Assembly: GCF_002887735.1 (NCBI RefSeq)
Contig: NZ_PKQP01000001.1
Coordinates: 744,001 to 808,000, forward strand
Direction: 5' to 3'
Length of the DNA stretch: 64,000 nucleotides
Origin: Stenotrophomonas bentonitica
GTDB taxonomy: Bacteria > Pseudomonadota > Gammaproteobacteria > Xanthomonadales > Xanthomonadaceae
Position numbers and translations under genes: made by a program. Of the stretch, positions 35,214-39,412 are shown piece after piece (within the stretch, counting starts at the first letter, position 1; each line of letters begins with the position of its first letter). The notes under the pieces were generated by a model. That model did not search any database. It was given only the letters and a program-made list of their open reading frames with translations, and was not told the DNA's origin.

Positions 35214-35317
35214 CGTTTGGAAAACAGCATTCGCCGGAGCATGACCTCCCGCCCATGTACGCGCCGGACAGACTGGTAAGCTCGGACGCTTCCGCCCCGT
35301 TTCCCGGAGTTCGTCCC

Positions 35318-36739
35318 ATGCGTCGCCGCGTCCTTGCCATCGCATCTTCCCTCGCCCTGCTGGCCGCGCCCGCGTTCGCGGCGACCGGTATCACCACGCT
35401 GCCGCCGACGTCGCTGGCCACCGCCGCCGAGCTGCGCGAGCAGGCCCTCAAGGACGACACCGGCTGGAAGGTGGTCGAATCGCTCACCACCGAGATCGGC
35501 CCGCGCATCGCCGGCAGTGAAGCCGACGCACGCGCCGTGGCCTGGGCGGTGGCCAAGTTCAAGTCGCTGGGCTTCGACAAGGTCTGGACCGAGCCGGTCA
35601 CCTTCCCCAAGTGGGAGCGCCGCAGTGAGCACGCCGAAGTGATCGGCAAGCATGCCCAGCCGCTGACGGTCACCGCCCTGGGCGGCAGCCCGGGCGGCAC
35701 GGTGGAGGCCGACGTCGTGCGCTTCGCCGATCTGGCCGCGCTGCAGGCCGCGCCGGAGGGTTCGCTGAAGGGCAAGATCGCCTTCGTCGATTACCAGATG
35801 ACCGCCTACCGCGATGGCCGCGACTACGGCAACGGTGGCGCCGTGCGCAGCAAGGGCCCGTCCGAGGCGATCCGCAAGGGTGCGATCGGCTTCGTGATGC
35901 GCTCGGCAGGCACCGATTCGCACCGCGTGCCGCACACCGGCATCACCCGCTTCGATGACGGCCTGACCCCGGTGCCGGCCGCCGCGCTGTCGGTGCCCGA
36001 TGCCAACCAGCTGGCGCGCCTGGTCGCGCTCGGCAGCACCACGCTGAAGCTGAGCCTGGATTGCGGTTGGGATGGTACGGCCACGTCGCACAACGTGATC
36101 GGCGAGATCACCGGGCGCAGCCTGCCCAAGGAAGTGGTGGTGATCGGCGGTCACCTCGACTCCTGGGACCTGGGCACCGGCGCGGTGGATGATGGGGCCG
36201 GCGTGGGCATCACCATGGCCGCTGGCCATCTGATCGGCCAGCTCAAGCAGGCGCCCAAGCGCACCATCCGCGTGGTCGCGTTCGCCAACGAGGAGCAGGG
36301 CCTGTACGGCGGCAAGGCCTACGCCGAGGCACATGCCAAGGACGTGGTGCGGCACCAGCTGGCCGCCGAAAGCGATTTCGGTGCCGGCCGCATCTATGCC
36401 TTCAACACCGGCTCGCCGAACCCGGCCAATTCGCGCGAGGCCACCCGCCAGATCGCCGAGGTGCTCAAGCCGCTGGGCATCGAGTACGCCGCCGACAAGG
36501 GCGGCCCGGGCCCGGACGTAGGTCCGCTGGCGGCCAAGGGCGGCGCGTGGGCATGGCTGGCGCAGGACGGCAGCGACTACTTCCACCTGCACCACACCGC
36601 CGACGACACGCTGGACAAGATCGACCCGGCGGCGCTGGCGCAGAACGTCGCCGCCTACACGGTGTTCGCGTATCTGGCCGCCGAGGCCGACGGCAGTTTC
36701 GGCAGCGAAGCCAAGCCGACCACGCCGCCGAACGAGTAA
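35318..36739 (+). CDS. Secreted M28-family metallopeptidase
   Basis: A 473-residue aminopeptidase of family M28 with a Sec signal peptide (MRRRVLAIASSLALLAAPAFA). A PA domain (about residues 130-260) precedes the zinc-peptidase domain: VVIGGHLDSWD (His, Asp), GAVDDGAGVGI (bridging Asp), FANEEQGLYG (catalytic Glu and zinc Glu), AAESDFGA (Asp) and HLHHTADD (final His). GGAG lies 8 bases before ATG 35318. It probably releases N-terminal amino acids from peptides in the periplasm or outside the cell. No neighbours suggest a special substrate. Confidence 0.92.
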   Translation: MRRRVLAIASSLALLAAPAFAATGITTLPPTSLATAAELREQALKDDTGWKVVESLTTEIGPRIAGSEADARAVAWAVAKFKSLGFDKVWTEPVTFPKWERRSEHAEVIGKHAQPLTVTALGGSPGGTVEADVVRFADLAALQAAPEGSLKGKIAFVDYQMTAYRDGRDYGNGGAVRSKGPSEAIRKGAIGFVMRSAGTDSHRVPHTGITRFDDGLTPVPAAALSVPDANQLARLVALGSTTLKLSLDCGWDGTATSHNVIGEITGRSLPKEVVVIGGHLDSWDLGTGAVDDGAGVGITMAAGHLIGQLKQAPKRTIRVVAFANEEQGLYGGKAYAEAHAKDVVRHQLAAESDFGAGRIYAFNTGSPNPANSREATRQIAEVLKPLGIEYAADKGGPGPDVGPLAAKGGAWAWLAQDGSDYFHLHHTADDTLDKIDPAALAQNVAAYTVFAYLAAEADGSFGSEAKPTTPPNE

Positions 36740-36759
36740 TCCCGACACGCAGGCGGCAG

Positions 36760-36780
36760 GTACCGACCGTGGGTCGGTAC
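36760..36780 (+). repeat. SMAG-like palindrome of the GTACCGACC type
   Basis: Perfect 9-bp arms GTACCGACC/GGTCGGTAC around GTG. The head is degenerate (GCAG for GTAG). On the plus strand it can act as a 3' hairpin of the M28 peptidase mRNA; it abuts the A9 tract that is the T9 tail of the opposite-strand terminator. Confidence 0.7.
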
Positions 36781-36810
36781 AAAAAAAAACCCGGTCGCAA
36801 TGCGACCGGG
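36781..36810 (-). terminator. Strong intrinsic terminator, minus strand
   Basis: Stem CCCGGTCGC/GCGACCGGG with a 3-base loop followed by nine T residues on the minus strand. It ends the transcript that contains the candidate RNA and perhaps rlmB. Confidence 0.93.
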
Positions 36811-36960
36811 CTACCGGGATTCGTCACACCCCACGCGGTGAGCGCCGTACTACTTTCACGGTCCGGAGAAACGGACCGTCGCACTGCGTGGATGTCTCTC
36901 CTCATCTACGCAGCACAACGTCCACCCCGCACTGTGCTCAGTTCTCACGTCGAGCGCTAT
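36781..36960 (-). ncRNA. Candidate structured small RNA (or structured rlmB 3' UTR)
   Basis: About 180 bases of non-coding sequence ending in the strong terminator. Hairpin A is CTGCGTAGATG (36913-36903) with CATCCACGCAG (36894-36884), loop AGGAGAGA; hairpin B is ACGGTCCG (36879-36872) with CGGACCGT (36865-36858), loop TTTCTC. The GAGAGA of loop A can pair with all six bases of loop B (one G-U), so a kissing interaction is possible. An inverted repeat ATCCGA-A-TCGGAT (36968-36980) lies just upstream of the likely 5' end. No reading frame in it is convincing. The 5' end is a guess; no clear -10/-35 pair is seen. It could also be a 3'-UTR-derived RNA of rlmB. Confidence 0.5.
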
Positions 36961-37062
36961 GCGGAAAATCCGAATCGGATGTAGTCACGACGCGTTCGGT
37001 GAAACCGATCACACCGCGGGTCCGGCGCAACGCGCCGTTCCCGACAAACGCACACCTTCCGA

Positions 37063-37902
37063 TCAGCGCGAGCGGCTGCCGTACCAGTGCGCCAACAACA
37101 CCGCCGTCGCCGAAGCGACGTTGAGGCTTTCCACGGCACCGGACCCGGGAATGGACACCTGCAGATCGCAGTCGTCGGCCAGATCGCGGTCCATGCCCTC
37201 GCCCTCGGCACCCATCACATAGACCAGGCGTTGCGGCAGTTCCGTGGCGAACAGGTCCTTGCCTCCCTCCACCAGCGTTGCCGCCAGGCCGATGCCGGCC
37301 GCGCGCAGCTGCGCCATCGCCTCGGGCAGTTCCGGCAGACGCACCAGCGGCACCGACTCGGCGCCGCCTTCGGCCACGCGCGCGGCCGCGCCGGACAATG
37401 CCAGAGTGGACCCCGGCGGCAGCAGCAGCCCGGCCACACCGAAATGCGCCGCCGAGCGCAGGATCGCGCCGAAGTTGTGCGGGTTGCCTACGCCATCCAG
37501 CCACAGCGCCAGCACCGGCGCGCCGGCCGGCAACGTGGCCAGCCATTCGTCCAGCTCCAGCATCGGCGCACGCAGCACGTCAGCCACCAGGCCCTCGTGG
37601 TGGGTGGTCGCGGCGAGCTTGTTCAGATCGCCGTCTTCCACCACACGGTAACCGACGCGGTTGGCCACGCACCATTTCAGCACCGGCTGCATGCGCGGGA
37701 TCAGCGACTCGGTCAGGTACAGCTTGCGCAGCGCCTGCGGGCGATGCTCGAACAGTGCCTGCACGGCATTCCAGCCGTACAGGCGCAGCTCGTCGTTGCC
37801 GCGGCCGGGCGGCGGCGGCGTGCCACCTTCGCGCGGCGGCAACGGCGTGGCGCGCGGCGGCCGCGAGGACGGACGGCGCGCATTCTTCCAGGGATCATTC
37901 AC
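37063..37902 (-). CDS. rlmB: 23S rRNA (guanosine-2'-O-)-methyltransferase RlmB-like SpoU enzyme
   Basis: A 279-residue SPOUT methyltransferase; RlmB methylates G2251 of 23S rRNA. An N-terminal Pro/Arg-rich linker precedes the SpoU substrate-binding domain (RLYGWNAVQALFEHRP), and the knotted catalytic domain has LDGVGNPHNFGAILRSA, VMGAEGEGM and IPGSGAVESLNVASA. I start it at GTG 37902 (VNDPWKNARRPS), which overlaps the symporter stop by 8 bases; a longer frame to 37962 would run back into that gene. TrmH-type tRNA substrates are an alternative. Its transcript runs into the structured region and strong terminator at 36781. Confidence 0.87.
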   Translation of the reverse strand: MNDPWKNARRPSSRPPRATPLPPREGGTPPPPGRGNDELRLYGWNAVQALFEHRPQALRKLYLTESLIPRMQPVLKWCVANRVGYRVVEDGDLNKLAATTHHEGLVADVLRAPMLELDEWLATLPAGAPVLALWLDGVGNPHNFGAILRSAAHFGVAGLLLPPGSTLALSGAAARVAEGGAESVPLVRLPELPEAMAQLRAAGIGLAATLVEGGKDLFATELPQRLVYVMGAEGEGMDRDLADDCDLQVSIPGSGAVESLNVASATAVLLAHWYGSRSR

Positions 37903-39412
37903 TACGGGACAGCTCCAGCTTGCGTTGACGCCAGAAATCGGCGTTCTTGATGCCAAGTGCATCGGGGTCGAAGGTCGGATCCAGGCCGAGCTTCTTTTGA
38001 CGTTCGTAGTCGCGCAGGGCCAGCATCGCCGGCTTCTGCACGATCAGGATCGCGATGATGTTCAACCACGCCATCAGGCCGACGCCGATGTCGCCCAGCG
38101 CCCAGGCCATGCCGGCATTGTGGAAGGCACCGAAGATCACCATGCCGATGATGCCCAGGCGCAGCAGCAGGACGGTCAGCGGGCGCTTGGCGTTGTTGTT
38201 GACGTAGGTCAGGTTGGTCTCGGCCATGTAGTAATAGGCCATGATCGTGGTGAAGGCGAAGAAGAAGATCGCGATCGCCACAAAGGCCGCGCCGAAGCCC
38301 GGGATGACGGTTTCCACCGCCGCCTGGGCGTAACCCGCGCCTTCAGCGACACCGGCCAGGCCGGCGAACACGGGCGCGCCGCCCGGGACCGGGGAATACA
38401 CGTTGTAGGTGCCCGCGGCCAGGATCAGGAACGCGGTGGCGGTGCACACCATCATGGTGTCGAAGTAGATCGCGAAGGCCTGCACGTAACCCTGCTTGGC
38501 CGGGTGCGAAACCTCCGAGGCGGCCGCCGCATGCGGGCCGGTACCCTGGCCGGCCTCGTTGGCGTAGATACCGCGCTTGACGCCCCACTCCACCGCCAGG
38601 CCCATCATCGCGCCGAACGCGGCATGCGCACCGAAGGCGCTGCTGAACACCGTGTGGAACATGTCCGGCACGCGGTCGTAGTTGATGATCATGATGACGA
38701 TGGCCATCAGGATGAAGGCGGCGGCCATGAACGGAACGACCACCTCGGCGAAGTTGGCGATGCGCTTGACGCCGCCGAAGATCACCACGGCCAGCAGCAA
38801 CGAGACCACGATGCCGATGCCCAGCTTGAGCGCCTGCACCGATTCCAGGCCCATGAACTGACCATCCAGTGGCCCGCACAGCGCACCGCCGCGGCAGGCA
38901 TTGATGATGCTGTCGGCGATGGCATTGGCCTGCACGCCCGGCATCAGGAAGCCGGCGGCGATGATGGTGGCCACGGCGAAGGCCAAGGCGTACCACTTCA
39001 GGCCCATGGCCTTTTCAATGTAGTACGCCGGGCCACCGCGGTAGCGGCCTTCGGCATCCTTGGTCTTGTAGATCTGCGCCAGGGTGCATTCCACATACGA
39101 GGTGGACGCACCGAGGAAGCCCATCACCCACATCCAGAAGATCGCACCGGGGCCACCGAAGGCGATCGCGGTGGCCACACCGGCGATGTTGCCGATGCCC
39201 ATGCGCCCGGCCATGGACATGGCCAGCGCCTGGAACGAGGACACGCCCGCCTCGGATTTCTCACCCTGCACGGTGAGCCGGCACATCTCCACGAACCCGC
39301 GGATCTGCATGAAACGGGTACGGGCACTGAAGTACAGGCCTGCGGCAAGACACAGGAAGATCAGGGCTTTGCTCCAGATGATCCCGTTGATGAAACTGAC
39401 TACTTCTTCCAC
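37895..39412 (-). CDS. AGCS-family sodium:alanine/glycine symporter
   Basis: A 505-residue inner-membrane symporter of the alanine/glycine:cation family, importing D/L-alanine or glycine with sodium. About eleven hydrophobic helices; family motifs GRMGIGNIAGVATAIAFGG and NEAGQGTGPHAAAASEVSHP are clear. GTG 39412 (VEEVVSFINGIIWSKALIF) is preferred because GGAGAG lies 5 bases upstream and earlier residues are Arg-rich and non-conserved. It is upstream of rlmB with an 8-base overlap. Confidence 0.92.
   Translation of the reverse strand: MEEVVSFINGIIWSKALIFLCLAAGLYFSARTRFMQIRGFVEMCRLTVQGEKSEAGVSSFQALAMSMAGRMGIGNIAGVATAIAFGGPGAIFWMWVMGFLGASTSYVECTLAQIYKTKDAEGRYRGGPAYYIEKAMGLKWYALAFAVATIIAAGFLMPGVQANAIADSIINACRGGALCGPLDGQFMGLESVQALKLGIGIVVSLLLAVVIFGGVKRIANFAEVVVPFMAAAFILMAIVIMIINYDRVPDMFHTVFSSAFGAHAAFGAMMGLAVEWGVKRGIYANEAGQGTGPHAAAASEVSHPAKQGYVQAFAIYFDTMMVCTATAFLILAAGTYNVYSPVPGGAPVFAGLAGVAEGAGYAQAAVETVIPGFGAAFVAIAIFFFAFTTIMAYYYMAETNLTYVNNNAKRPLTVLLLRLGIIGMVIFGAFHNAGMAWALGDIGVGLMAWLNIIAILIVQKPAMLALRDYERQKKLGLDPTFDPDALGIKNADFWRQRKLELSRSE

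Follow-up and report, generated by a model that had tools for sequence, protein, structure and literature searches.

Among described small RNAs, the ones that come closest to the RNA considered here are CsrB, RsmY and RsmZ, RsmU and sX13. CsrB-like RNAs contain many GGA sites, with a preference for ANGGA. The RNA found downstream of rlmB in Stenotrophomonas resembles CsrB, RsmY, RsmZ and RsmU in that it has a GGA in a hairpin loop that looks like the ribosome-binding site of an mRNA, which would make it a candidate for RsmA binding at most, and it has one invariant open GGA where CsrB, RsmY and RsmZ have several. According to the accessible text of PMC7694677, a ComEA-type mRNA gives rise to RsmU by processing of its 3' UTR; our RNA lies 3' of rlmB and not of a ComEA-type gene. 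For sX13 (RF02232), the accessible text of PMC3771888 describes a location downstream of polA, C-rich loops and apical loops that are the functional parts. Like sX13, the RNA is a compact, structured intergenic sRNA of the Xanthomonadaceae with a housekeeping gene as landmark, but this gene is rlmB and the loop is purine rich. The genome has its own sX13 elsewhere, at the DNA polymerase I locus (122.5 bits to RF02232), and the Rfam search of the window and eight relatives gave no sX13 match in the rlmB-adjacent RNA. With lax thresholds, Rfam 15 gave matches of 19.3 to 24.8 bits for this set, all below the gathering threshold. Spot 42 (RF00021) and the Burkholderia anti-hemB RNA (RF02837) matched weakly over the whole RNA or its 3' part, at 19.7 to 24.8 bits against gathering thresholds of 80 and 49.5, which we treat as chance. 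No family reached its gathering threshold; a match to an Rfam family was one of the outcomes that would have spoken against the uncharacterised regulatory RNA proposed in a first-pass annotation of this DNA. A literature search on Stenotrophomonas sRNAs, in which subscription journals were thinly covered, gave, among the papers listed, none on this locus and no dedicated sRNA paper for the genus. The RNA is most likely undescribed and strongly structured, and it has so far been seen in one Stenotrophomonas group only.

The window, i.e., the whole stretch of 64,000 nucleotides of Stenotrophomonas bentonitica DNA that was analysed, has on its minus strand an open reading frame (37063-37962) for an RlmB-like, SpoU-family rRNA methylase, which fits the name rlmB, and on its plus strand one (35255-36739) for an M28 peptidase, as named before. 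On the minus strand, 282 non-coding bases run from the rlmB stop to the last T of a T run (37062 to 36781), in line with the approximately 280 first given. The features of this region are as follows.

36781 to 36949, minus strand: predicted small RNA gene of about 169 nt, with homologues by covariance model and alignment in 22 of 87 loci of the genus
36877 to 36920, minus strand: hairpin A, arms 36903-36920 and 36877-36894, helix 1 of the consensus
36895 to 36902, minus strand: loop of hairpin A, 8 nt, AGGAGAGA, predicted open in 21 of the 22
36845 to 36861, minus strand: hairpin C, CCGT/ACGG in the window, from covariation; takes the place of the hairpin B first annotated
36814 to 36866, minus strand: closing stem P2, CCGG (36863-36866) with CCGG (36814-36817), enclosing hairpins C and D, from the alignment
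36822 to 36844, minus strand: hairpin D, loop GCGTGG at 36831-36836, from covariation in a 20-row alignment
36781 to 36812, minus strand: intrinsic terminator with nine T, helix 5, arms 36801-36810 and 36790-36799
36956 to 36985, minus strand: promoter-like block, ACTACA (36980-36985), 18 nt and CATAGC (36956-36961), with GATTCGGATTTT conserved between, from identity
36998 to 37013, minus strand: CRP/Clp-like box TGTGATCGGTTTCACC, TGTGA-N6-TCAC in 11 of 22 relatives
36858 to 36879, minus strand: hairpin B as first annotated, arms 36872-36879 and 36858-36865, a window-specific alternative to P2 and C

The 5' end of the predicted RNA is a guess, set 7 to 8 nt past the -10-like CATAGC. The terminator stem is followed by nine T, and hairpin A, whose arms are 78% complementary over 18 nt, lies where it had been placed, so both elements of the first-pass annotation were recovered. 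Directly past the T run, at 36753-36781, there is a short inverted repeat, GTACCGACC-CAC-GGTCGGTAC, which recurs many times both in this genome and in related ones and which we take to be a REP-like element of the SMAG type.

The real support for the RNA is comparative. The 176-nt RNA folds better than 200 of 200 dinucleotide shuffles (z -3.46); the terminator scan alone found 1, no excess over a mean of 0.7 in shuffles. When the 22 members were aligned with MAFFT, blind to structure, the result was a consensus of 39 pairs, made up of stem A, closing stem P2 with hairpins C and D inside, and the terminator. In this alignment 97.9% of 819 cells are paired and 12 of the 39 pairs have changed on both sides. 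On four of five measures these values were reached by none of 500 shuffles, and on the fifth, the number of pair types, by 52; pairing falls to 38 to 45% when the partner is slid. Hairpin A is paired in 99.3% of cells, with both-side changes in three pairs, and the terminator in 100%, also with three such pairs, the T run being present in 22 of 22. Of the compensating changes that the first-pass annotation proposed to look for in relatives, those in the stem of hairpin A are there, and the suggested pairing between the two loops has none. Five of the six pairs of hairpin C have changed on both sides, e.g., to CACGG/CCGTG or GCATCC/GGATGC in relatives, with 89.7% of cells paired in the 22-row alignment and 87.5% in a second, 20-row alignment of the 3' core. 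The latter consists of 16 of the 22 members and four diverged ones; L064, L066, L069, L076, L078 and L105, which are near kept rows, and the too diverged L144 were left out. Here 95.2% of cells are paired and 10 of 25 pairs have changed on both sides, values that none of 500 shuffles reached on four measures and 39 reached on a fifth. Stem P2 never varies in the 22, and therefore shows no covariation there, and three of its pairs are kept in all 20 rows of the 3' core. Hairpin D, a candidate fold, is paired in 95.0% of cells of the 20-row alignment, with both-side changes in two pairs; single-sequence ensembles disfavour it in 22 of 22 (closing-pair probability 0.00 to 0.25), and an alternative, D' (GGGGU/AUCCC), showed no covariation in the alignment. 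P2, C, D and the terminator are also found in the four diverged members, where more pairs have been compensated. In these members (L114, L121, L117 and L140) GCGTGG or GTGTGG is kept together with the 3' core, and the loop of hairpin A differs (TCTC in L114, CTCTCC in L121). Conserved non-coding sequence with a covarying structure, and a conserved intrinsic terminator, both marks of an intrinsically terminated bacterial sRNA gene, were found. On the basis of these alignments, we are confident that a conserved structured RNA lies at rlmB in the S. rhizophila group of Stenotrophomonas. Together with the promoter-like block and the lack of an Rfam family at threshold, covariation and terminator support in part the uncharacterised regulatory RNA of the first-pass annotation; that it is expressed and regulatory is what we infer.

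The same alignments altered other parts of the first picture. Hairpin B has perfect arms in the window, but across relatives it is 71.4% paired, no more than in shuffles, and a gap of 3 nt interrupts it in 14 of 21 distinct rows; we rejected it as a conserved element and consider it the window's own alternative to P2 and C. Its loop is fully complementary to loop A in the window, which had led to the idea of complementary hairpin loops. An intramolecular kissing structure of these loops is nevertheless extremely improbable, as 20 of 21 distinct sequences cannot form two of the six pairs, with no covariation, and one of the two hairpins is not conserved. The operator-like repeat ATCCGA-N-TCGGAT is present at 36968-36980, as annotated, but it is complete in only 3 of the 22 (L061, L062 and L069). 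Three others (L067, L068 and L070) keep the inner CCGA/TCGG, and GATTCGGATTTTTCG is the more widely kept piece. Open frames run across the region, and it could be asked whether they represent a small protein-coding gene (starting RTG-AGG-AGA) instead of an RNA. Single-base indels in near-identical stretches, e.g., L080 versus L078 and L062 versus L061, and the covarying base pairs led us to reject this reading, to which we give almost no credence.

To see how the RNA is distributed, rlmB was looked up in 91 genomes of the genus, giving 89 matches, and the downstream DNA was taken for 87 of these (in G446 and G469 the match is at a contig end). In 22 of the 87 loci the RNA is present directly 3' of rlmB, each time with a terminator, and these score 124 to 175 bits with the covariance model. 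The diverged versions L121, L114, L117 and L140 score 43 to 56 bits and a fifth, weaker one, L144, scores 26 bits. The best of the remaining 60 loci (L127 and L085) reach 22 bits and are not counted as members; among those listed there are other terminators or repeats downstream of rlmB. A blastn search with the intergenic stretch in 61 genomes gave long matches in eight, the genome itself and seven congeneric ones, all directly 3' of rlmB. Two motifs in the exact form of the 22, looked up in GTDB species genomes, gave 15 records, 14 of them labelled Stenotrophomonas, including four S. rhizophila and two S. maltophilia. The other record, L154, is labelled Bacillus subtilis SK7B5 and, because it carries the RNA, is probably a mislabelled Stenotrophomonas assembly. 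In a first model search (R1), 57 of 395 family genomes had matches at an E value of at most 0.01; 11 score at least 49 bits and all 11 are congeneric, while the remainder stay at or below 36.5 bits and rlmB is absent from the 1.5-kb flanks of all 19 weaker loci that were checked. A second model (R2), with L105 excluded from the search behind it, gave matches in 30 of 395 family genomes, 11 of them at 74 bits or more, and in 15 of 299 order genomes, six of them at 74 bits or more; all 11 and all six are Stenotrophomonas. These samples, 395 genomes for the family and 299 for the order, thus gave no confident copy outside Stenotrophomonas. The weaker family and order matches, part of which were read, are treated as terminator look-alikes and not as members. 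Four weak model matches, near the centre of L045, L048, L043 and L049, are terminator regions with a nearby hairpin loop that is UCUCUC-rich on one strand and complementary to loop A, which may be a coincidence.

The position next to rlmB raises the question of how the RNA is made. Mean identity is 0.74 over alignment columns 81 to 100, which contain ACTACA, and 0.88 over columns 101 to 120, from GATTCGGA to GCAT; in 20-column bins it is 0.66 at the predicted 5' end and at most 0.36 past the T run, where the final bins contain many gaps. The 22 share the promoter-like block, whose form in the window, ACTACA-18 nt-CATAGC, is weak compared to consensus, and a promoter scan of the window region gave no match to the sigma-70 consensus. 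The RNA, a predicted gene, would be transcribed, probably from this block. The TGTGA-N6-TCAC box upstream, presumably a CRP/Clp-type motif, is present in only 11 of 22, and because of this we do not claim control by CRP or Clp. The diverged members start nearer the rlmB stop and have no such promoter-like block, and processing from the rlmB mRNA is therefore possible. The element could even act in cis alone, as a structured 3' UTR with a terminator that protects the 3' end of the rlmB mRNA, or be a processed 3' UTR fragment with no function in trans. The placement of the diverged members agrees with this, as do the position directly 3' of rlmB in 22 of 22, with the M28 gene downstream in only three of the eight blastn loci checked, and the many sRNAs of Xanthomonas campestris that derive from mRNA, according to the accessible text of PMC7694677. 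However, the 22 share an invariant loop region of 12 nt and an invariant 3' stretch of 17 nt, with covariation in the other stems, which is more than a terminator needs, and they also conserve the promoter-like block. We regard this cis reading as possible, though less likely than not.

The likeness of loop A to a Shine-Dalgarno sequence or a GGA target turned out to be the most useful part of the first-pass annotation. TGAGGAGAGACA is identical in all 22 members, and the octamer AGGAGAGA has a mean unpaired probability of at least 0.92 in 21 of these, the exception being L074 with 0.48. There are 33 AGGAGAGA sites in the genome itself and 14 in G002. Only three of the 33 are closed by at least four contiguous pairs, and these are this RNA and the ribosome-binding sites of two TonB-dependent receptor genes; the two so closed in G002 are this RNA and the same first receptor. 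Receptor 1, a TonB-dependent receptor with a Plug domain by Pfam, has the ribosome-binding site GATG-AGGAGAGA-CATC-ATG. Its sequence, GATGAGGAGAGACATCATGA, is present in 87 of 91 genomes of the genus, and the 20-mer up to ATGA is exact in 87 of 87. With up to two mismatches it occurs in 43 of 297 family genomes, 16 within the genus and 27 outside it, covering nine of 54 genera. In nine genomes of the genus that were read, Pfam being run on one, the gene behind it starts alike, and in G454 the protein diverges afterwards. Of four examples from other genera, three are TonB plug proteins by Pfam and one has a changed loop base. The ribosome-binding sequence of receptor 1 may by itself be an element of translational control. 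In the genome itself (L293, C45:137516-137536), the 16-mer GATGAGGAGAGACATC stands directly before the ATG of receptor 1, and hairpin A of the window contains the same 16-mer. The second receptor, with the ribosome-binding site CTGC-AGGAGAGA-GCAG and a carboxypeptidase-regulatory-like domain in its gene, keeps CUGC-AGGAGAGA-GCAG in the leaders of G000, G456 and G026 (L219, L217 and L211) and has lost the stem in G002 (L261). As a general receptor signal we rejected the AGGAGAGA hairpin, because only 2 of 59 receptor leaders carry it, a set in which start codons were picked by a simple Shine-Dalgarno score and some are doubtful.

The region is best explained as a lineage-specific small RNA gene of the S. 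rhizophila group, located 3' of rlmB and with its own terminator. The leading, though tentative, reading of the likeness is that its hairpin A would display AGGAGAGA in a stem-loop shaped like the one at the ribosome-binding site in the receptor-1 mRNA. As a decoy it would draw off whatever binds the receptor-1 hairpin, be it an RsmA/CsrA-type GGA-loop protein or an RNA, and receptor synthesis would then be released. The invariant TGAGGAGAGACA, the open octamer, the restriction of closed AGGAGAGA sites to this RNA and two receptors, the presence of the receptor-1 sequence in nearly the whole genus and the 16-mer inside hairpin A all point in this direction. Against it, with the composition of the window at least two of the 32 other sites would have four or more Watson-Crick pairs by chance with p = 0.054, and with p = 0.196 when G-U pairs are allowed. 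Flanks of the form TG/CA are expected 0.24 times, those with the full GATG/CATC 0.006 times. Among the 22 the full flank is found only in the window's RNA, most members having GGTG/CACC. Furthermore, AGGAGAGA makes a good Shine-Dalgarno sequence in itself, as which it presumably serves, without such a stem, in the genes for ribosomal proteins L4 and L22. The hairpin is rare among receptor leaders and the stem at the second receptor is lost in one genome. For the receptor-1 leader, the predicted folds of G000, G002 and G456 contain the hairpin and that of G020 does not; G020 is one of the genomes where the receptor-1 sequence stays and the RNA was not found. Moreover, the diverged RNAs have other A loops. 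The likeness of loop A to the receptor-1 hairpin is no more than suggestive. Because of the chance figures, the GATG/CATC flank seen in the window only and the 2 of 59 leaders, we treat mimicry of a ribosome-binding site by hairpin A as a lead, possible but tentative, and level with the antisense explanation considered below. The complete proposal, in which a lineage-specific decoy copies the receptor-1 hairpin and frees synthesis of the outer-membrane receptor from a genus-wide binder of this hairpin, is less probable still and should be regarded as unlikely.

If RsmA were what the RNA binds, it might also be a sequestering RNA of the CsrB/RsmY kind. The GGA in an open hairpin loop and the same loop at two receptor ribosome-binding sites would fit this, and RsmU is described as an unconventional RsmA-binding RNA of Xanthomonas in the accessible text of PMC7694677. 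On the other hand, a single GGA is both invariant and open, with a second, nearly invariant one at stem P2, so the several GGA loops of such RNAs are not found, and loop A reads GAGGA, which differs from the ANGGA preference. We regard RsmA sequestration as improbable.

The same loop could instead act by base pairing, the RNA being a trans-acting antisense sRNA that would pair through loop A (GAGGAGAGA) or GCGTGGG with pyrimidine-rich regions of mRNAs. In favour of this, the purine loop is invariant and open, GCGTGGG recurs in 19 of 20 rows, three of the four diverged members among them, and Xanthomonas sRNAs are strongly structured according to the accessible text of PMC3771888. We scanned five genomes for TCTCTCCTC, the 9-nt full complement of GAGGAGAGA, and 30 of the 35 matches were read. 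Five of the 30 are the locus of the RNA itself, and three (in G456, G002 and G454) fall on the receptor-1 leader, in reverse orientation. Two sense-strand matches are each common to two genomes. One, in G000 (L203, C42 near 106146) and G026 (L181), is 2 nt past the stop of a membrane-protein-like gene and ahead of the terminator-like hairpin of that gene; the other, in G454 and G026, is at the 3' end of a different reading frame. Both are candidate antisense targets, and a decoy would have no need of them. However, neither is present in all five genomes, G002 and G456, for which all matches were read, lack both, and no shared match covers a sense ribosome-binding site. Antisense pairing is a tentative option of the same weight as mimicry through hairpin A.

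The RNA gene is much firmer than the decoy model. It adds a well-supported structured RNA family, one that has no Rfam 15 match at threshold, to Stenotrophomonas. The analysis also draws attention to a TonB-dependent receptor gene of the genus with a highly conserved ribosome-binding sequence that could fold into a stem-loop. Should the RNA mimic the receptor-1 hairpin, the two would be a simple pair with which to find a regulator of nutrient uptake in plant-associated bacteria.
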